DNA of 64,000 nt. Origin: Fictibacillus enclensis (GTDB taxonomy: Bacteria; Bacillota; Bacilli; Bacillales; Fictibacillaceae). Where the stretch lies: NCBI RefSeq assembly GCF_001457035.1, contig NZ_KQ758622.1, forward strand, positions 1-64,000, read 5' to 3'. Numbering within the stretch: the stretch's first letter is position 1; each line of letters opens with the position of its first letter. The position numbers were made by a program, and so were the translations under genes. The notes beneath the pieces were generated by a model that did no database searches, was not told the origin of the DNA, and saw nothing but the letters and a program-made list of their open reading frames with translations. This document shows positions 6,449 to 29,835 of the stretch, one piece after another.

Positions 6449-8386
6449 ATTCTCTTCTTGAAGTTGTTCCCATTCTTCCATCAACTGTTCCATCTCGGCG
6501 CTCAGTGCCTCGATCTGCTCATTGTGATCCTGCGTTTTTTCATAGTCCTGAAAGATCTCAGGATCGCACAAGGCTTCTTCGTGCTCGGCCTGGCGTGCTT
6601 CAAGGGTTTCAAGAAGGCCTTCAATTTCTTCAATCCTTCTCAGGCGTTTCCGGTCTTCCCGTTTGGCGGCTTTATCCTGACGATAGCTGCCGATGGGTGG
6701 TTCATCTGTTTTGGCGGAAGGGGCAGAGGCTTCCTGGCTTTTTTTCAGGTATTCTTCCCGTTCTCTCGTTTCTGTTTTCTTATCCACATAATAATCGTAG
6801 TCACCGAGATAGTTTGTGATTTGGGTGCGCGACAGTTCGGCGACCTTTGTTGCGATCCTGTTGATAAAGTAACGGTCATGGGAAACAAAGACGATCGTTC
6901 CCGGATAATTGATCAATGCCTGCTCGAGGACTTCCTTGCTGTCGAGGTCCAGGTGGTTCGTCGGTTCGTCCAGAAGAAGCAGATTCGCTTTTTGCATCAT
7001 CAGCTTGGCAAGAGCGAGCCGTGCTTTTTGGCCGCCGCTCAGCTCGTTGACAAGCTTTAGTACATCGTCACCGCTAAACAGAAAGTTTCCGAGAACGGTG
7101 CGAATCTCTTTTTCCGTTTTGTCCGGATATTCATCCCACAGCTCGTTCAGCAGGGTTTTCCGGGAGTTCAGGTTGGCCTGCTCCTGCTCGTAATGGCCGA
7201 TCTTCACATTGGCTCCGTACCGGATGGTGCCGTCAAGGAGTGGCAGCTGTTTTAAAACGGCCTTCAGCAGGGTGGACTTGCCGATACCGTTCGGCCCGAC
7301 AAGCGCTACCGCATCCTGACGGGATACATCGTAATTGATGTTGGTGATGAGCGGCACTCCGTCCTCATAGCCCGTGGCCACATGTTCAAGCTTCAGCACG
7401 TCATTCCCGCTCTGCCGCTCAATATCAAACATGAAGGAAGCCGACTTCTCATCACCGAGCGGCCTGTCCATCACTTCCATACGCTCGAGCTGTTTTCTTC
7501 GGCTTTGCGCACGTTTGGTGGTGGAGGCACGAACCAGGTTTTTCTGGACAAAGTCCTGCAGCTTGGCGATTTCGTCCTGCTGCTTTTCGTACGCCTTCAT
7601 GTCGAGCGCGAGCCGCTCGGCCTTCTGCTCCAGAAACTGCGTGTAGTTTCCTTTGTATTTGAAGGAGCGATGCCGGGTAATTTCATAGACCGTCGTTACG
7701 ATTTTGTCCAGGAAATAACGGTCATGGGATACGAGCAGAATGGCGCCCGGATAGGACTGCAGGTATTGCTCCAGCCAGGAAAGCGTCTCGATGTCCAGAT
7801 GGTTGGTCGGCTCATCAAGGATCAAAAGATCCGGCTTGGTAAGGAGCAGCTTGGCCAGGGCCAGCCGTGTTTTCTGTCCGCCGCTTAAGGTTGCGACAGG
7901 TGTTGCAGGGTCAAAGTCTGCGAACTGAAACCCGTGGAGGACGGTCCGCATTTCCGCTTCGTACTGATAGCCTCCCGCTTCTTTAAATGTGATCTGCAGC
8001 TCGTCATACTCCTTTAGGAGTTTATTGTAGCTGTTTTCGTCTTCAATCAGCGCAGGGTCGCCCATGCGGCTTTCCATGCTGCGCAGCTGTCTTTCCATTT
8101 TACGAAGCGGTTCAAACACACTCAGCATCTCATCCCAGATAGAGAGGCTTGATTCAAGGCCGGTGTGCTGTGCGAGATAGCCCACCTTGACTCCTTTTGG
8201 CATAATAAGCTGTCCGGAGTCATAGGACAGGTCGCCCGTTATGATCTTCAACAGCGTGGATTTGCCCGCTCCGTTTCTTCCAACAAGCGCGATTCTGTCG
8301 CGTGTTTGGACTTCGAGCTTAATATTCGATAAAATAGGGTCAGCCCCAAACGATTTTGTTAAGTCATTCACTTGCAAAATAATCAC
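6446..8386 (-). CDS. ydiF: ABC-F family ATP-binding protein YdiF
   Basis: 646 residues with two ABC ATPase domains and no membrane segments. Walker A GRNGAGKST (about 37) and GPNGIGKST (about 356); ABC signatures LSGGQKTRLALAKLL and LSGGQKARLALAKLM; Walker B LLILDEPTNHLD and LLLLDEPTNHLD. The linker and a long charged coiled-coil tail match the ABC-F ribosome factors. Likely acts on stalled ribosomes. GTG start at 8386 behind GAGGTGA. Transcribed against the thiL operon and away from moaC. Confidence 0.93.
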   Translation of the reverse strand: MIILQVNDLTKSFGADPILSNIKLEVQTRDRIALVGRNGAGKSTLLKIITGDLSYDSGQLIMPKGVKVGYLAQHTGLESSLSIWDEMLSVFEPLRKMERQLRSMESRMGDPALIEDENSYNKLLKEYDELQITFKEAGGYQYEAEMRTVLHGFQFADFDPATPVATLSGGQKTRLALAKLLLTKPDLLILDEPTNHLDIETLSWLEQYLQSYPGAILLVSHDRYFLDKIVTTVYEITRHRSFKYKGNYTQFLEQKAERLALDMKAYEKQQDEIAKLQDFVQKNLVRASTTKRAQSRRKQLERMEVMDRPLGDEKSASFMFDIERQSGNDVLKLEHVATGYEDGVPLITNINYDVSRQDAVALVGPNGIGKSTLLKAVLKQLPLLDGTIRYGANVKIGHYEQEQANLNSRKTLLNELWDEYPDKTEKEIRTVLGNFLFSGDDVLKLVNELSGGQKARLALAKLMMQKANLLLLDEPTNHLDLDSKEVLEQALINYPGTIVFVSHDRYFINRIATKVAELSRTQITNYLGDYDYYVDKKTETREREEYLKKSQEASAPSAKTDEPPIGSYRQDKAAKREDRKRLRRIEEIEGLLETLEARQAEHEEALCDPEIFQDYEKTQDHNEQIEALSAEMEQLMEEWEQLQEEN

Positions 8387-14352: not shown

Positions 14353-15997
<1,645 letters not shown>

Positions 15998-16046
15998 AAA
16001 CATCTTAAAGCCCTGATATTTGAGGGGTTTGAAGGTGTTAAATTGC

Positions 16047-16068
16047 AAATGCTCATACTTTTGCTCAT
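16047..16068 (+). repeat. Arm-like repeat, copy 1
   Basis: A 22-mer with two TGCTCAT half-sites spaced 12 bp apart. It matches 22795-22816 in 21 of 22 bases. It lies just inside the left attachment copy of the first element and may be an integrase arm-binding site. Confidence 0.55.
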
Positions 16069-16089
16069 AGCAGCATGAATACAAAGTTT

Positions 16090-17253
16090 TTAGAGAAGGT
16101 CTTTCATCAGTTTGCTAAACTGGTGGGAGGCCTTTTCTTCCATATTAGAGGTCATATGGGCGTAAATATTCATTGTGGTGTTTATATCGGTATGCCCTAA
16201 GCGATTTTGAATCTCCTTTACTCCGACACCAGCTTCAATTAATAATGAAGTATGTGTGTGTCTAAATGAGTGAGGAGTGATATTTTTTGTGATGCCTGCT
16301 TTTTTTAATAAACGCTTTAACCGAATTTCCACAACTTTTCTAAGTTGAGGATGACCGTCATTTCGTGCAAATATAAATTGATTATCAACATATACGGAGC
16401 CATATTGTAATTTCATTTCTTTTTGTTGGATTTCATGGCGTTTAAGCATTTTTACGAGTCGATCATCAATCCGAATTGTACGAATTGAACCTACCGTTTT
16501 GGGCGAAAGTAATTGATATTTAGTTATATTATTACTCGGATTATATAGTGTTTTGGTTACTCGAAGGGCTCCTTTTTCATAATTAACATCATTCCATTTT
16601 AAAGCAAGCAATTCGCTTATACGTAATCCTGTTTAGGAGAGGGTGGTAAATATTAAAGAATCCAAATCCAAACCTTCCATATCACAAAGGCGCAGGAACA
16701 GCGCAAGTTCTTCTTTCTCTAAAAACTTCATCTCTTTTTCTTGATTCTCAATTTCCTCTACTTCTATACGCTGCTTTGGTAACTGAATATTTTCTGTAGG
16801 ATTAATCTTGATAAATTCTAACGCAACAGCATGCTTAAATATCAAACGGCCGCACGCATGGATGCCACTTAAATAATTTTTGCTGTACTGCTCGGAAAGT
16901 TCGATTATCCGTTTTTGATAATCCCTTCTTGTTATCTTGTTAAGCGGATATGGCCCCCATACTGAAGTGAAGTGCTTCAATTCTTTACTGCGTGCTCTTA
17001 CGCTGCTTACTTTGGCATTTTGACCATAAGCCTTTATCCAATCATCAGTAAAAGATTGAAACGTCATTTTTGATTCCTTTATATATGTTCCAGCCTCTAC
17101 CTCCGCTTCCAAAGCCCGTGCAGCAGAGACTGCTTCCTTTTTGGTGGGAAATCCTGATTTTGTCTTCTGTTTTTGAACTTTGGTCAATGGATCGATACCG
17201 AGGGAAATCGTATATGACCACTTGCCGTTACTACTTTTTCGAAAATATGCCAT
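16090..17253 (-). pseudogene. int: Tyrosine integrase, interrupted by one in-frame stop
   Basis: One reading frame of 387 codons broken by a single TAA at codon 207 (16633-16635), in FTTLS-stop-TGLRISELL where related proteins usually have a Tyr. N-terminal Arm and SAM-like domains lie before it; the catalytic domain follows with Arg 211, H-x-x-R in TPHSFRHTHTS (about 328-331) and nucleophile Tyr in MNIYAHM (about 364). Everything else is intact, so inactivation looks recent, or the base is a sequencing error. It sits next to attachment copy 1, as expected for the integrase of the youngest element. Confidence 0.9.
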
Positions 17254-17254
17254 G

Positions 17255-18190
17255 CTATTTATCTCCTTTTTTCCGTTTTTCTTTCTTTAACCTATTATTA
17301 TATGCCATCTCACAACTAGAACGTTTACGACCTGGGAGGGCTGAACAAAAACGCTGTCTCTGATGGGTGACTTCAAAGGGATGACCATAATTTTCGCAAA
17401 TTTTCATCTCCGCTTTATTCTCCATGAATAGATTTAAATAAAAATAAGCTGCATCAAATAAATCCATAAATACTGTTATAGGAATGTTGCTTTTCATCTT
17501 ATAGGAGAAGAGCGATTTTTCTTCTGTTTTTTCATGCAACATTCGTCTTGCATGGTCATCCACAAATTCTCCCTTTCTGGGAGCCGTTGGTAGTGTCGAA
17601 TAATCATCTGTAAGAAGCGCTTTTAGGTAAGAAAATACTTTTTGAAACTGGTGGACTTCGTGAAAAAAATCTTGAAGGGACATCCACATGATATTGATAT
17701 CTACCTTTTGTGGTTTTTCCTCCAAGATAGATTGAGTTATTCCAGTCGGAAGACCCCACGTATTACAAAAGTTCATTATATCTGAGAAAGTTGAAAAAGG
17801 GTTTTTTGCTAACTCTGTGTAAAGCGTTCTTCCATATGACTTCAAATCATATTCTGTAGTCAATAATCCATTGGAGAAAATTTGCTTATTGAAATCTTCG
17901 GTTGTTTTTAATTTTGATACTGCCTTTTTTGCAACTATAAAAGACGCTTTGTTTTTAAAGACTTTTAGATTATCCTCAGCGTTAATCTTTTCAATTAGTC
18001 CATTTTTATTTTCACCGTACAACGCTTTACTATTAAAGAAAGTATGATCCTTTAAAAGTGGAATTATGATTTCATTAGAAAAGCTACTGGAACAACTTTT
18101 GTGGCCATCACTGGTGAAGTAGTAAAAAATCATTTGTTCCCACTCCCTCCACTCGCTGAACAAAGACGAATTGTGGAGAAGATTGAACAA
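17255..18190 (-). CDS. Unknown protein with damaged zinc-ribbon-like tail; N-terminus uncertain
   Basis: 311 codons, one base from the integrase start. The last 50 residues carry a pattern common in Firmicute hypothetical proteins (HQRQRFCS, PGRKRSSCEMAYNNRLKK). The usual first C-x-x-C reads C265-E-N-Y268, so one ligand is lost, while C282 and C293 remain. The first 40 or so codons lie antisense to an HsdS fragment, so the true N-terminus is probably shorter or was lost at a junction. No ribosome site is obvious. Could be a pseudogene. Confidence 0.55.
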   Translation of the reverse strand: MFNLLHNSSLFSEWREWEQMIFYYFTSDGHKSCSSSFSNEIIIPLLKDHTFFNSKALYGENKNGLIEKINAEDNLKVFKNKASFIVAKKAVSKLKTTEDFNKQIFSNGLLTTEYDLKSYGRTLYTELAKNPFSTFSDIMNFCNTWGLPTGITQSILEEKPQKVDINIMWMSLQDFFHEVHQFQKVFSYLKALLTDDYSTLPTAPRKGEFVDDHARRMLHEKTEEKSLFSYKMKSNIPITVFMDLFDAAYFYLNLFMENKAEMKICENYGHPFEVTHQRQRFCSALPGRKRSSCEMAYNNRLKKEKRKKGDK

Positions 18191-18241
18191 TTATTACCTT
18201 ATACAAAACAATTGGTAAAAAAGGTGACCGCGTCCGGGTAA
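18056..18241 (+). pseudogene. Type I restriction specificity subunit (HsdS), C-terminal relic
   Basis: A plus-strand frame open from 18056 to a stop at 18239-18241 reads about 61 residues with KATGTTFVAITGEVV and FPLPPLAEQRRIVEKIEQLL, the hallmark end of an HsdS target-recognition domain and its helical spacer. There is no start codon, HsdM or HsdR. It marks an older restriction system deleted from this element. Confidence 0.82.
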
Positions 18242-18297
18242 CACGTGAAAAATCGCATAATTCGATAGGGGGGTACCCCTAAAATGCCCAAATAAAG

Positions 18298-18362
18298 CCG
18301 CATAGCCTTGTAAACCTTGATATTTAAGGGTTTGCGGGTTGTGTGGCTATTTTTATTTTGTC
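18298..18362 (+). terminator. Large terminator-like hairpin
   Basis: AGCC/GGCT outer stem with a nested AAACCTT / AAGGGTTT hairpin, then TTTTTATTTTG. It separates the HsdS relic from the helicase gene. The inner arm resembles the CTTGATATTT-AAGGG motif near the att sites. Confidence 0.65.
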
Positions 18363-18590
18363 TAAAAGTATAGGTTTTTGATATAAATATCATTTTAAAT
18401 TTTTATCTATAGAAAATGACAAAATTTATTCATTTTTTCAAGCAATCAGAGAGGAACGTTTTGAGAACTGGAATTCAACATTAATAATCTAATTAGATCA
18501 ATCAGTAATACAATGATATGTCTAAATGAGTGTCATGAGAGTGTAGTAATTTTTTAGTCTAAATTTGAAAAAACAACAGACTTACTATAT

Positions 18591-18601
18591 GAATGGTATA
18601 A
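18591..18601 (+). promoter_or_regulatory. Extended -10 promoter of the helicase gene
   Basis: TGGTATAAT at 18593-18601 is a perfect extended -10 element 25 bases before the start codon. No good -35 hexamer, which such promoters can lack. The preceding 18363-18590 holds no gene. Confidence 0.65.
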
Positions 18602-18625
18602 TTAGGAATAAATAAGGAGGATTAT

Positions 18626-21145
18626 ATGGTTAACTTTAAAAAGCGACTTACTAAACAAAAAATTGAAAAGAAAATCCGTCCTGATGAAATTTATTCTACT
18701 CTTGATAGATCTAGCGATAAAGGGCCATTACGTCCAGTACAGGAAAAAATACTTGACAAGTGGTTTACGGATTTTCAAGGCAAAAAAGATGTTATATTGA
18801 AGTTACATACAGGTCAAGGTAAAACGTTAGTTGGGTTACTTATGCTTCAATCAAAGTTAAATCAAGAAAAAGGTCCTGCTTTATACCTTTGCCATAATAA
18901 TCAATTAGTAGAACAAACTTGTAAACAGGCTGAAAGTTTTGGAATTGGTTATACAACTGTTGATAGGGAAATTCCTGATGAATTCATAGATGGAAAGACT
19001 ATTTTAATAACATCAGTTCAAAAGCTTTTCAATGGTGAAACCAAATTTGGTCTGGGTAACAAATCAATCTCTGTCTCTACTGTATTAATGGATGATGCAC
19101 ATGCATGTATAGAGGTAATAAAAAATGCCTGTAAAATTGTATTAAAGCAAGACTCGCATGCTTATCATGAAATTTTCTCATTGTTTTCCACGGAATTACA
19201 GAACCAAGGGGCGGGAACATATGCTGATATTACTCGAAAAAGTTATGATTCACTAACAGCTGTCCCTTATTGGGTTTGGCAAGATATGCATACAGAGGTA
19301 TCTGACATATTGTCAAAATACAGTAACCAAAAAGATATTAGGTTTACATGGCCGATAATTAAGGACATGATTAAAGATTGCCAATGTATTATTTCAGGAC
19401 AAAGCTTGGAAATTATTCCTTATGTAACTCCACTATATATGTTCGGGTCTTACCATAAAGCTGAACATAGAATTTTTATGTCTGCAACAATTACCGATGA
19501 TTCTTTCTTTATTAAAGGGCTAGGAATATCATCAGATACAATTCGTAATCCTTTGGTATTACCAGACGAAGGGTGGTCTGGTGAGAAAATGATATTAATT
19601 CCATCTTTAATTGATTCCTCATTAAATAGAACGGAGATAGTCAACATTTTTGCAAAACCATCAAAGAAGAGAAAATTCGGGGTTGTAGCCTTAGTACCAA
19701 GTTTTAATTCAACTAAAGACTGGAAGGAATACGGAGCTACCATAGCTACAAGAGAGATTATTGTTGATGAAATAGGAAAGCTCAAAGAAAAGAATTTCGA
19801 AAAAACCTTAGTAATAGCTAATAGATACGATGGAATTGATTTACCTGACAGTTCCTGCAGAGTGTTAGTGTTTGATTCAAGGCCATATTTTGAGTCGTTA
19901 TATGACAGGTATCTTGAGGAATGCCGTGGAAATAGTGATATTGTTTCAATAAAGCTTGCTCAGACAATTGAACAAGGACTTGGTAGAGCTGTCAGAGGAG
20001 AAAAGGATTATTGTGCAATAATTATTACTGGTACTGAGTTAGTTCGTGCAATTCGTAGTAAGAAATCAAGGGGATATTTTTCACTACAAACAAGGACACA
20101 AATAGAAATCGGCCTCGAAATAGCTGAATTTTCCAAAGAAGAGATAAGAGAAGGTGATGAGCCTAAAAAATCATTTTTAGGACTTTTAAAACAGTCACTG
20201 GGACGAGATGAAGGGTGGAAGGAATTTTATACTGAAAAAATGGATGAGATTCAACCTGATAGTAAAACCTCTAATATGTTAGAAATAATAGAGTTTGAAA
20301 ATTTAGCTGAAGAAAAATATTCAAGAGGAGATTTCCAAGGGGCTGTTCAAACAATCCAGAAATTAATCGATAACCATGTTACAACCGATGAGGAAAGAGG
20401 ATGGTATTTACAAGAAATGGCTAGACTTATATACCCTTCTTCAAAAATGACTTCAAATAAATTTCAAGTTAGTGCGCACAGGAAAAATACATTTCTTTTA
20501 AAACCAAAGGAAGGTATGGAGGTTCAAAAAATATCATCCATTAGTTTAAAGAGAATAGAAAATATATCTCAATGGATTCACTCATTTGATAATTTTGATG
20601 AACTTTATCTGGAATTGGATGATATTCTAAGTAAATTGAAATTTGGAGTGAATGCCGATCGGTTTGAGCAGGCATTTGATGAGCTTGCAAAAGTCTTGGG
20701 ATTTCCAAGTCAAAGGCCTGACAAAGAATGGAAAGAAGGACCAGATAATATATGGAAAACAGGGGATAACAAATACCTTCTGGTCGAATGTAAGAATAAT
20801 GTGGACGTAACAAGAAATGAAATTAATAAAGATGAAACGGGACAAATTAACAATGCTTGTGCATGGTTTGAAAAGGTATATGGGGACGTACTTGTTAAAA
20901 ATATTATTATAATTTCGACTAAAAACGTTTCTAAGGCTGCGGGATTCAATAAATCAGTACAAGTGATGAGAGAAAATAAATTAAGATTATTAACCGATAA
21001 TGTTAGGAAGTTTTACCTAGAATTTAAGGGACTAGACCTAGATAATTTATCTGAAAAGAGAATTCAGGAATTATTGGTTAGGTTTAAATTGACAAGTGAT
21101 GATTTAATGTCCGATGTATATTCAGAGGAGCCAAGACTACATTAA
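18626..21145 (+). CDS. SF2 helicase fused to a PD-(D/E)xK-like nuclease
   Basis: 839 residues. Helicase part: Walker A HTGQGKT at 61-67, DDAH box at 156-159, MSATITD (motif III) near 288, QGLGRAVRG (motif VI) from 450; the DDAH and motif VI styles recall Rad3/DinG-type enzymes, though no Fe-S cysteine cluster is evident. A helical linker follows (about 500-650). The C-terminal domain (about 665-790) has an early Glu helix, GPD near 706 and ECK at 721-723, the restriction-endonuclease fold signature. AAGGAGG precedes the ATG. A+T rich compared with the core genes. Followed by an HNH gene; together a candidate defence module. I do not recognise a named system. Confidence 0.8.
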   Translation: MVNFKKRLTKQKIEKKIRPDEIYSTLDRSSDKGPLRPVQEKILDKWFTDFQGKKDVILKLHTGQGKTLVGLLMLQSKLNQEKGPALYLCHNNQLVEQTCKQAESFGIGYTTVDREIPDEFIDGKTILITSVQKLFNGETKFGLGNKSISVSTVLMDDAHACIEVIKNACKIVLKQDSHAYHEIFSLFSTELQNQGAGTYADITRKSYDSLTAVPYWVWQDMHTEVSDILSKYSNQKDIRFTWPIIKDMIKDCQCIISGQSLEIIPYVTPLYMFGSYHKAEHRIFMSATITDDSFFIKGLGISSDTIRNPLVLPDEGWSGEKMILIPSLIDSSLNRTEIVNIFAKPSKKRKFGVVALVPSFNSTKDWKEYGATIATREIIVDEIGKLKEKNFEKTLVIANRYDGIDLPDSSCRVLVFDSRPYFESLYDRYLEECRGNSDIVSIKLAQTIEQGLGRAVRGEKDYCAIIITGTELVRAIRSKKSRGYFSLQTRTQIEIGLEIAEFSKEEIREGDEPKKSFLGLLKQSLGRDEGWKEFYTEKMDEIQPDSKTSNMLEIIEFENLAEEKYSRGDFQGAVQTIQKLIDNHVTTDEERGWYLQEMARLIYPSSKMTSNKFQVSAHRKNTFLLKPKEGMEVQKISSISLKRIENISQWIHSFDNFDELYLELDDILSKLKFGVNADRFEQAFDELAKVLGFPSQRPDKEWKEGPDNIWKTGDNKYLLVECKNNVDVTRNEINKDETGQINNACAWFEKVYGDVLVKNIIIISTKNVSKAAGFNKSVQVMRENKLRLLTDNVRKFYLEFKGLDLDNLSEKRIQELLVRFKLTSDDLMSDVYSEEPRLH

Positions 21146-21162
21146 ACAATCATATTAGAACC

Positions 21163-21187
21163 GGCTGCTTATGCAGCCTTTTTTTAC
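21163..21187 (+). terminator. Terminator between helicase and HNH genes
   Basis: GGCTGC-TTAT-GCAGCC followed by seven T. It lies in the 69-base gap between two same-strand genes, so the HNH gene depends on read-through or its own promoter. Confidence 0.88.
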
Positions 21188-21214
21188 TATTTTAGGAAAT
21201 TTGGAGATGGTTAC

Positions 21215-22192
21215 ATGGAATCAACAATCTATTCCCCATTTGAAGATTTGCACTTTGATTATGATAAATGTTTTCTGTGTGGAGGAGAACCAGATTCACA
21301 AGAGCATGTTTATCCAAAATGGCTGCAGAGAAAGTATGATCTTTGGAATAAAAGAATTTATTTCCGAAATAGAACTAGTATACAATATAAAGATTTAAAA
21401 ATCCCTTGTTGTAAAAACTGCAATAATAAATCTTTATCTCAATTAGAAAATAAAATTAATGAAGCAGTTAATGGAGGATATGAAAAGTTTAAGAACTTAG
21501 ACGAATTAACAATAATGCAATGGGTTTCGAAAGTATACTACGGAAAGTTATTTAAAAAGTTGAATCTATTAATTGACAGAAAAAATAAAGACTTTGGGAC
21601 AATGGTAAATAAAGAACAAATTTTTTCTTATAGGGGCTTACATGAATTTTTACAATCATTACGTAAGCCAATAGAATTTACTGGCGATATTCCTTGGTCT
21701 GTACAGGTTTTTCAAGTACATAATGACTCCAGACTTGAAGATTATGAATATATAGATACGATTTTTATAACAGGCTGTATTCGTATAGGGGATATTGGAA
21801 TTGTATATAGTTTTGGAGACTGGGGATATGCAAAGTTAGGTAATAGTAAAATACTAAATGACTTCATAGATTTAATAATTCATCCTATACAGCTACAAGA
21901 AATAGCGGCAAGGTTTTCATATGCTCGTTCAAAGGTGAATTTTGAAAATCTTTCCCTCATAGTTATGGATGAATCAAGACTCACATATATTGGAACAAAA
22001 CCAAATATACAACTTACATTCAATCATAAAGAGTATTTTATGTTTTTGCAATTTTTCTTTGTTAATTTCGGAAATTCTGTGAAATTGATTTATGATGAAA
22101 CACAAGAGTCTATAACTAGTTTTCTCTTTGAAAATAACCAAGCAAGAGTATTAGATGAAAATGGCCAGCTAAAATGTTACAAAAGAACATAA
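21215..22192 (+). CDS. HNH-like endonuclease domain protein
   Basis: 325 residues. The N-terminal 75 residues have an HNH/treble-clef layout: C19-x-x-C22, E30-H31 with P34 (EHVYPKWL), then C66-x-x-C69-N70. The remaining 250 residues have no motif that I recognise; a C-terminal half of mixed strands could sense a ligand. GGAGATGG precedes the ATG. Immediately downstream of the helicase-nuclease, same base composition, both probably acting on nucleic acid. Nuclease activity is inferred from the motif only. Confidence 0.75.
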   Translation: MESTIYSPFEDLHFDYDKCFLCGGEPDSQEHVYPKWLQRKYDLWNKRIYFRNRTSIQYKDLKIPCCKNCNNKSLSQLENKINEAVNGGYEKFKNLDELTIMQWVSKVYYGKLFKKLNLLIDRKNKDFGTMVNKEQIFSYRGLHEFLQSLRKPIEFTGDIPWSVQVFQVHNDSRLEDYEYIDTIFITGCIRIGDIGIVYSFGDWGYAKLGNSKILNDFIDLIIHPIQLQEIAARFSYARSKVNFENLSLIVMDESRLTYIGTKPNIQLTFNHKEYFMFLQFFFVNFGNSVKLIYDETQESITSFLFENNQARVLDENGQLKCYKRT

Positions 22193-22393
22193 TCTGATAA
22201 ACATTTAATTCCACTTTTCACTAAACGATTAGAAGTGTTGTAAATTAATAAATAAAATGATTTAGAGGATAAAGGATGAATAGTGCAATTCTAGTTGCTA
22301 ATGATACTAAGGCAGTTTATTGTAATAATTGGCCTTTTTCCATATTCTAAAAAATAGTTCTCGCTTAATTTATCCATCGGATATATAATAAAT

Positions 22394-22464
22394 ATGCTCG
22401 TGGTGTAATGGCAGCATTCTCGACTACGAATTGAGAGGTGACGGTTCGAATCCGTTCGGGTCCA
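22394..22464 (+). tRNA. tRNA-Arg(ACG)-like gene, acceptor stem incomplete
   Basis: 71-nt cloverleaf-like sequence: anticodon arm CTCGA-CTACGAA-TTGAG with anticodon ACG after U33, T arm ACGG-TTCGAAT-CCGT, D arm GTGT/GCAT. The last four acceptor pairs form (CTCG with CGGG) but the first three (ATG against TCC) do not. No CCA is encoded. A terminator follows at once, so it is probably transcribed. Either an element-borne tRNA that has begun to decay or a tRNA-derived att remnant. Confidence 0.6.
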
Positions 22465-22476
22465 CTCAAGGTGGTA

Positions 22477-22506
22477 AAAAGCACAGTCACTGACTGGGCT
22501 TTTTTT
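22477..22506 (+). terminator. Terminator after the tRNA-like gene
   Basis: AAAGC(A)CAGTCA / TGACTG(G)GCTTT stem then TTTTTTT. The 22507-22919 stretch holds no convincing gene; 22795-22816 is a near copy of 16047-16068. Confidence 0.8.
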
Positions 22507-22794
22507 ATGCAAAATACTTTTTTTTTGAATACAACCATGTGGATCTCCTTTATTAAGGCTATTTTTGTTAGATGTTTGTCCTCCTGATATTTTCTTTTTA
22601 TTAGAAATTATTAATGTCAAACTAAAAAAGTATCGGTATTGTACTCATTATTGGATTGCTTCTCGGGGGATCAAGGTAAAAAGGTCAAATCTGTTTGAAA
22701 AGGTATGTAGAGGGATAAGAATTGGTCTTTTTCAACAGTGAAGGAGTTCATTTGCGGGAGAAGAGGGGCGACGAGAGGAAGTTGTGATTCATTA

Positions 22795-22816
22795 AAATGC
22801 TCATAATTTTGCTCAT
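22795..22816 (+). repeat. Arm-like repeat, copy 2
   Basis: 21 of 22 bases match 16047-16068. It lies just inside the right attachment copy (22920), so the pair brackets the first element. Confidence 0.55.
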
Positions 22817-22919
22817 TGAATTTTTTTGTTTGGTTAAGGATTATTTTAGAAGAACGCTATGAACCCTTCTTATCAAGGCTTTTTATGATGCTATCTTTGC
22901 CCATTTCATCTCCTGATGA

Positions 22920-22938
22920 ATGGGCGGCATGATGTAAT
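22920..22938 (+). repeat. Attachment-site copy 2
   Basis: Exact copy of the groEL-end 19-mer. It is preceded by GCCCATTTCATC-TCCT-GATGAATGGGC-type inverted repeat sequence (22899 onward), as expected of core-type integrase sites. An integrase fragment follows. Confidence 0.88.
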
Positions 22939-25589: not shown

Positions 25590-26243
25590 ATGGTGAGAAT
25601 TGAGGAAATAATTAATCCAGATACAAAACTTTATCATGCTACAACTAGTAATTACGTAAAATCGTTGTTTGATGGTATTCAAATTAGTAAATGTGATACC
25701 CAAACCGATTTTGGGCAAGGATTTTATTTAACTACAAACTTGAAGCAAGCAAAAAAGTGGGCATTTACAAAAGAAAATGAGCATAATAGAACTGAAGAAA
25801 AAAAGCAAATAAAGCAAAGAACTTCATACGCTAATTATGTTAAAGGCGTGATTGTAGTTTATAATATGCGACTACAGGGAATTACACCCTTCGAATTTAA
25901 TACTCATGTGTTCCCAACAGCTGATTTAAGATGGGGAGATTTTGTTTACCGAAACCGATCATTCATCGACCATCCGCAATTTAACAATAGAAATAAAGAT
26001 ATAGATATCGTATATGGCCCTTTAGCAGACGGCAACGGACTTATGGGAATGATAGATGATGTCGATAACGGCGAAATGGAAGTGCCGGATTTTTACAATA
26101 ATATATTGAGTGAACATTACGTGCTTAATGGTTTTGACCAGTTATCAGTTCACACCCCTCGAGCTATTGAAACTTTATTATGGAAAGAGGTGATCTTACC
26201 ACATGAGCTTAGACGAAAACAAAAAACAAGAATACGTGGATAG
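25590..26243 (+). CDS. DUF3990-like ADP-ribosyltransferase-type protein (putative toxin)
   Basis: 217 residues. The opening LYHATTSNYVKSL and QTDFGQGFYLTTNLKQAKKWA match the DUF3990 pattern, an ART-like fold with His (near 16) and Tyr (near 47) in the NAD-binding positions. It overlaps the following 76-codon gene by 41 bases, a layout typical of toxin-antitoxin pairs; in other Firmicutes such proteins lie beside a small DUF3791-type partner. GTGGGGATGAG lies upstream of the ATG. Toxic activity is inferred. Confidence 0.72.
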   Translation: MVRIEEIINPDTKLYHATTSNYVKSLFDGIQISKCDTQTDFGQGFYLTTNLKQAKKWAFTKENEHNRTEEKKQIKQRTSYANYVKGVIVVYNMRLQGITPFEFNTHVFPTADLRWGDFVYRNRSFIDHPQFNNRNKDIDIVYGPLADGNGLMGMIDDVDNGEMEVPDFYNNILSEHYVLNGFDQLSVHTPRAIETLLWKEVILPHELRRKQKTRIRG

Positions 26244-26433
26244 ATTTACTGAAAAAATATTAGAAATATTAATTTACGAACATGGTGTTAAAAAAGAAGA
26301 AGCCATCGAACTTCTTGATGATTCAATTTATTTCGAAATGTTAGATGATAACTTCAATTTCGTTTTGCACCATTCACCAAAATATTGGGCTAAAAAAGCC
26401 TTGGAATTTCAGAGGCAAGTAGAATATGCATAG
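26203..26433 (+). CDS. Small acidic partner of the DUF3990-like protein (putative antitoxin)
   Basis: 76 residues, helical and acidic (KKEEAIELLDDSIYFEMLDD). GAGGTGA at 26188-26194 gives correct spacing to ATG 26203. Overlaps the upstream gene. The length and the sequence EYVDRFTEKILEILIYEHGV are compatible with DUF3791-type partners; the assignment is by context. Confidence 0.65.
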   Translation: MSLDENKKQEYVDRFTEKILEILIYEHGVKKEEAIELLDDSIYFEMLDDNFNFVLHHSPKYWAKKALEFQRQVEYA

Positions 26434-29072: not shown

Positions 29073-29291
29073 AGAGACAATGCTAAAATACGTGTATATG
29101 ATGACGGTAAGTATATTTGCTTATTATTCTTCATATTACTCTCATAAACCATCTTATAATTATTACCAAAAGTGGGGGATTCTTATAAGAGTATGAGCGG
29201 AATGCCAAGCAGTGGGAAGGATGATGTATTAGGATTGTCTAAAAAGAAACCTGATTATGAAGAACAAAAAGGAAAAGAAGTAGATATTGAA
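29073..29291 (+). pseudogene. Decayed paralogue of the small ORF at 23243-23566
   Basis: Reads RDNAKIRVYDDGKYI, then stops, then resumes as GDSYKSMSGMPSSGKDDVLG and KKPDYEEQKGKE. Clear homology to the other copy, with internal stop codons and a frameshift. Confidence 0.7.
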
Positions 29292-29410
29292 GTCTTTCCT
29301 GTTCCATTTTCACCGATGAATATCTTTACTTCTTGATCAAGGTGTATTTTTAGACTTTTGTAACCAAATAATCCCTTAATCTCAACTGATAAAATCGCAT
29401 CTCTTTGCAT
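29292..29410 (-). pseudogene. AAA ATPase, N-terminal stub
   Basis: ATG 29410 follows AAGGGGG. The protein reads QRDAILSVEIKGLFGYKSL, then VKIFIGENGTGKTS, the Walker A of OLD/RecF-like AAA ATPases common in defence systems (Septu-, retron- or Gabija-like). It is cut off right after Walker A by the junction with the pseudogene at 29291. Confidence 0.65.
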
Positions 29411-29816
29411 AAACATCCCCCTTAATGCAAATGGTTTATAACGGTTAAAAATGCTAAGTTTTTAAGGCTTAAAGAAGTGAAGTATCCAAGTCTTTACTAG
29501 TTACTATTTCTATTTTCAAACAAGTGTAGCAAACCTCAGTAAAGGGCTGCTTACGATTAATTGTTCAACTCAATAAAAGAGTGCTAACTTTTATCGCTTC
29601 CCATTGAATAAAGCCCCTTTTTTCATTGAAAATACACCTTTTATGTAATAACTATATAAAAGGGTTTTCTCATTGTCTCGTTTTAAGGAGTCTGATTATT
29701 ATGTTAGGTCTTTTATGTCCAAGAAAATGAAGGTCGTAGTTGTGTAATGGGGAAAATTTTTTAACTGTATCCTTTTTAGAGTACAGGAACGAAAAACAGC
29801 AAAATCCAACTAAAAG
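29411..29816. other. Spacer before attachment copy 4
   Basis: No gene. Includes CATTGAATAAAGCCCC and other A+T-rich sequence without a clear fold. Confidence 0.35.
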
Positions 29817-29835
29817 ATGGGCGGCATGATGTAAT
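29817..29835 (+). repeat. Attachment-site copy 4
   Basis: Exact copy of the groEL-end 19-mer. A degenerate integrase related to the first one follows, with the same short gap. Confidence 0.88.

Follow-up and report, generated by a model that had tools for sequence, protein, structure and literature searches.

The helicase-nuclease gene studied here is best read as a stand-alone abortive-infection gene of the Hna type (hereafter hna), and the HNH gene behind it as a separate mobile nuclease that hna does not need, both being cargo of a 6.9-kb element inserted at the 3' end of groEL by a tyrosine recombinase that is now interrupted; we give this reading a probability of about 0.93. The window refers to the whole 64,000-nucleotide stretch of Fictibacillus enclensis DNA that was analysed. 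A preliminary description of the window had proposed that an SF2 helicase fused to a C-terminal PD-(D/E)xK-like nuclease domain and the neighbouring HNH protein make up a two-gene defence system without a name. It was right about the two reading frames, which are both open on the forward strand (18626..21145, 839 residues, and 21215..22192, 325 residues), and it was also right to see in the fusion protein a mobile-element-borne defence gene whose motifs are conserved. The larger claim, that of an unnamed pair, does not hold for the reasons set out below.

The identity of the 839-residue protein follows from sequence comparisons. Its top PADLOC profile is PDC-S28 (1060.7 bits, residues 1-832), and the Hna protein encoded on S. 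meliloti pSymA, when run likewise, also has PDC-S28 as its top PADLOC profile (1012.8 bits). A phmmer search of the PDB matched a single sequence, present under 10uj, 9ykj and 9yhn (941 bits, 4.9e-282), and the alignment runs end to end, from residues 1-830 of the query to residues 1-836 of S. meliloti Hna, at about 49% identity; 10UJ and 9YKJ were deposited by Hooper et al. 2026 as the Hna monomer and dimer (PMC13381803). A tblastn search with the helicase-nuclease led to a 49.7% identical protein on pSymA. Because the PDB match covers the full length and PDC-S28 is the best profile for the pSymA protein as well, the 839-residue protein is, judged from its sequence, a Bacillus-type copy of Hna, a known abortive-infection family for which PDC-S28 serves as a candidate label. 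The assignment to SF2 helicases made beforehand agrees with the Pfam matches (ResIII 3.6e-14, DEAD 4.1e-11, Helicase_C_2 2.5e-6).

The conservation of individual residues points the same way. In the numbering of the 839-residue protein, the Walker A motif lies at 62-67 (TGQGKT), the DDAH motif at 156-159 and the nuclease residues at P706, D707, E721 and K723. Among 59 aligned homologues, Q39, T62, G63, G65, K66, T67, D156, D157 and H159 are invariant and R36 is kept in 57; the GPD and ECK motifs had been placed correctly in the preliminary description, and G705, P706, D707, E721 and K723 are likewise invariant, the variable C722 being the one exception. Several of these positions have been mutated in S. 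meliloti Hna, namely those of the nuclease (P712A/D713A/E727A and K729A), of the ATP site (R36A/Q39A) and of the dimer interface (T30A/D31A/P34A) (PMC13381803). In the PDB alignment, P712, D713, E727 and K729 of S. meliloti Hna fall on P706, D707, E721 and K723, and R36 and Q39 of its ATP site are R36 and Q39 here too. In the dimerisation loop of HEL1, D31 and P34 are identical in both proteins and T30 is replaced by serine, which is the commonest residue at position 30 among the aligned Hna homologues.

The gene lies in a short element whose borders can be read from the repeats. The 21-bp end of groEL (GAATGGGCGGCATGATGTAAT, 15977..15997, forward strand) recurs exactly at 22918..22938, as a direct repeat at the distal end of the hna element, and its 18-bp core is found again at 29817-29834; with three copies of the groEL-end repeat, two elements stand in tandem. 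The first one (15998-22938, 6.9 kb) contains a tyrosine recombinase gene, the integrase of the element (16090..17253, reverse strand; Arm-DNA-bind_4, Phage_int_SAM_3 and Phage_integrase), a gene for a 311-residue protein with no family match (17255..18190, reverse strand), hna, the HNH gene and a tRNA-Arg (ACG) gene (22394..22465, forward strand). The integrase is split by a single in-frame stop at 16633-16635, the remaining frame being open, so that the word "intact" in the preliminary description fits the cargo and not the mobility gene. We also considered the tRNA-Arg as the attachment site and rejected it, since its 3' end is not repeated at the other border, where the 21-bp repeat of the groEL end is found instead; this tRNA gene, which had no DNA match in the 33 relatives searched, is possibly a cargo tRNA. 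The second element extends from 22939 to about 29834 and holds an integrase remnant, a DUF4467 protein and a pair made of a DUF3990 protein and a small protein. This pair, at 25590-26433, consists of an ADP-ribosyltransferase-like DUF3990 gene and a 76-residue partner, and matches the PADLOC candidate PDC-M13. At 29255-29416, a stub of 53 residues has the start of an ATPase with a Walker A-like motif (GENGTGKTS) and is probably the AAA relic mentioned in the preliminary description.

The product of the HNH gene is best described as an HNH_5-like, free-standing, nuclease-like protein that is not a component of Hna. The N-terminus of the 325-residue protein looks like an HNH domain of the zinc-binding type (CFLC, EHVYPKW, PCCKNCNN), and the signature CFxC...EHxxPxW...PCCxxCN is invariant in the family alignment, yet the protein matched no model in Pfam, PADLOC or NCBIfam; HNH_5 (PF14279) was matched by four of the seven aligned family members (best 4.6e-4), to which the window member does not belong. 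The HNH call of the preliminary description is plausible, and weaker than its calls of the helicase and nuclease motifs. An AlphaFold model built from five sequences reached a mean pLDDT of 67.5, a Foldseek search of this model against the PDB and viral models gave nothing with E below 0.001, and VIA-align gave nothing above Z 6.3; as no structural match was convincing, we claim no fold for this protein. The gene starts 69 bp past hna on the same strand, so co-expression by readthrough is possible. In the gap, 3' of hna and 5' of the HNH gene, lies a strong intrinsic terminator (21163..21185, forward strand; GGCTGC-TTAT-GCAGCC followed by TTTTTTT), the predicted fold of which has an energy of -12.2 kcal/mol and a z of -4.6, equalled by no shuffle.

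Whether the two genes belong together is a question that their distribution across genomes can address. Besides the one studied here, we counted 72 Hna loci, or 71 once one genome seen twice was dropped, and downstream sequence of at least 1.1 kb was present in 67 of the 72. By tblastn and by a profile HMM built from its relatives, the HNH family was found in none of the 71 other Hna loci, and the nearest Hna relatives (78%, 66%, 64% and 64% identity) all lack it. In the order, this genome alone among 397 has a convincing HNH relative, two further matches being marginal, and in the phylum the family occurs in two of 398 genomes, the second locus having no Hna beside it. Elsewhere the HNH family is scattered: plasmid-borne relatives have varied surroundings (transposases, DNA polymerases, metabolic genes and others), and in four viral contigs the gene lies between terL and portal, ahead of portal and capsid, next to portal and capsid genes, or upstream of terL (L077, L079, L076 and L078, respectively). 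Phage homing-type nucleases typically adjoin terminase and structural genes (PMC10448857). As for the helicase, a scan of IMG/VR returned no match, and the phage collection gave one, a Salmonella record of 501 kb. From the scattered contexts of its relatives, we infer that the HNH gene, most likely a bystander to hna, codes for a nuclease, homing-type or solitary, that moves independently.

These data weigh heavily against the idea of a two-gene variant of Hna, in which the HNH protein would be an accessory of Hna in this lineage, perhaps one that attacks double-stranded DNA, a substrate that Hna is unable to degrade. One may argue in its favor that the genes are adjacent, open, on the same strand, 69 bp apart and on one element; against it stand the lack of the HNH gene at the 71 other Hna loci, those of the closest Hna relatives included, the HNH relatives that live away from Hna, the terminator between the two genes and the publication of Hna as a single-effector system (PMC13381803), so that we regard such a variant as very improbable. 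On the co-occurrence data, the terminator and the match to Hna, we reject the unnamed helicase-nuclease plus HNH system of the preliminary description: its fusion protein is Hna/PDC-S28, a published single-protein system, and the homologues of its two members do not occur together.

A serious, though less likely, alternative is that the HNH gene is a second and independent defence gene on the same element, a solitary restriction-type nuclease. Such a role would suit a hotspot with other defence-like cargo, and some relatives are found in company of this kind, that of genome G574 near a DUF4238 gene and a further HNH gene, and that of Bradyrhizobium near an exonuclease/AAA pair; however, neither the 325-residue protein nor the G574 relative has a PADLOC match, and for several relatives the surroundings are phage structural modules, a setting that fits homing-type nucleases better (PMC10448857). 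There is hardly any room for the view that the helicase itself serves in housekeeping or repair, as helicases of the DinG/XPD kind do, and has no part in defence. DinG-family models do match the 839-residue protein weakly, and the Hna paper notes a similarity to ExoDinG (PMC13381803), but the scores of these models lie at 20 to 50 bits and that of PDC-S28 at 1060, hna is distributed sporadically (one of seven genomes of the genus; relatives in 11 of 397 of the order), and it is carried by a mobile element. We keep to Hna as a stand-alone gene with a probable bystander nuclease: as the helicase is the known Hna and the HNH gene looks like a bystander, what the small integrated element carries is a defence gene of an ordinary sort. 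It adds a new family member in Bacillota, and no new defence system.

The 3' end of groEL is a recurrent and tandemly occupied insertion hotspot with defence cargo in this family. Of 34 family genomes, 33 contain the groEL-end motif, frequently in more than one copy. In genome G005, less than about 80 bp past the groEL end, the sequence matches the window from 31543 onward, a junction resembling an empty site, and in genome G003 the groEL site holds the gene of a large, NTPase-like protein (judged by reading alone). In a genome of another genus of the family (G029, locus L111, G029:C1:27500-40000), a distant Hna-like gene of about 24% identity (G029:C1:30353-32755) starts about 300 bp past the groEL end; with this distant relative directly after groEL, Hna-type genes have reached the site more than once. 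A stretch of 92 bp upstream of hna (18429-18519) is 88% identical to positions 6544-6635 of locus L116, which lie close to where another groEL-site element, that of G003, has its att end, and this shared sequence suggests recombination between groEL-site elements. Our literature search for a described groEL integration site in Bacillus gave nothing specific.

Hna, named SMa2245 in a 2025 follow-up (PMC12445080), has been characterised in S. meliloti as an abortive-infection protein that is the single effector of its system (PMC13381803; PMC12445080), and about 2% of the bacterial genomes sequenced are said to contain it (PMC13381803); its discovery is credited to Sather et al. 2023 (Cell Host Microbe), as cited in PMC12445080. 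Abortive phage resistance has been published for S. meliloti Hna, together with a model in which ATP holds an inactive dimer that phage SSB opens, releasing a 3'-5' single-stranded DNA exonuclease. This scheme is the best one to transfer to the 839-residue protein, for which full-length homology and the conservation of functionally tested residues are the basis from which activity, trigger and abortive outcome in the host are predicted. In the uninfected cell, by analogy with the S. meliloti orthologue, the protein would be kept as an auto-inhibited dimer with ATP bound; the dimer would be broken by a phage factor, for instance a phage single-stranded-DNA-binding protein, the freed C-terminal PD-(D/E)xK nuclease would degrade single-stranded DNA from 3' to 5', and phage replication would be halted with the sacrifice of the cell. 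A well-conserved Hna is placed in a mobile element of Bacillota, where it offers a convenient Gram-positive orthologue for asking how general the SSB-triggered mechanism is.

Among known systems, the HNH protein comes closest to HNH_5 and the free-standing homing-type HNH nucleases of phages, with which its family has in common the cysteine- and histidine-containing signature and, for relatives in viral contigs, a place between terL and portal; the window member differs in falling below the Pfam model and in sitting in a genomic element rather than a phage. The closest known system to the helicase-nuclease is S. meliloti Hna: it resembles this protein over the full length, shares the order HEL1-HEL2-NUC and the catalytic and nucleotide-binding residues, and keeps the dimer loop except for T30, here a serine. 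The setting differs too, S. meliloti Hna being encoded on pSymA and the 839-residue protein on an element at the groEL site of a Bacillota chromosome.
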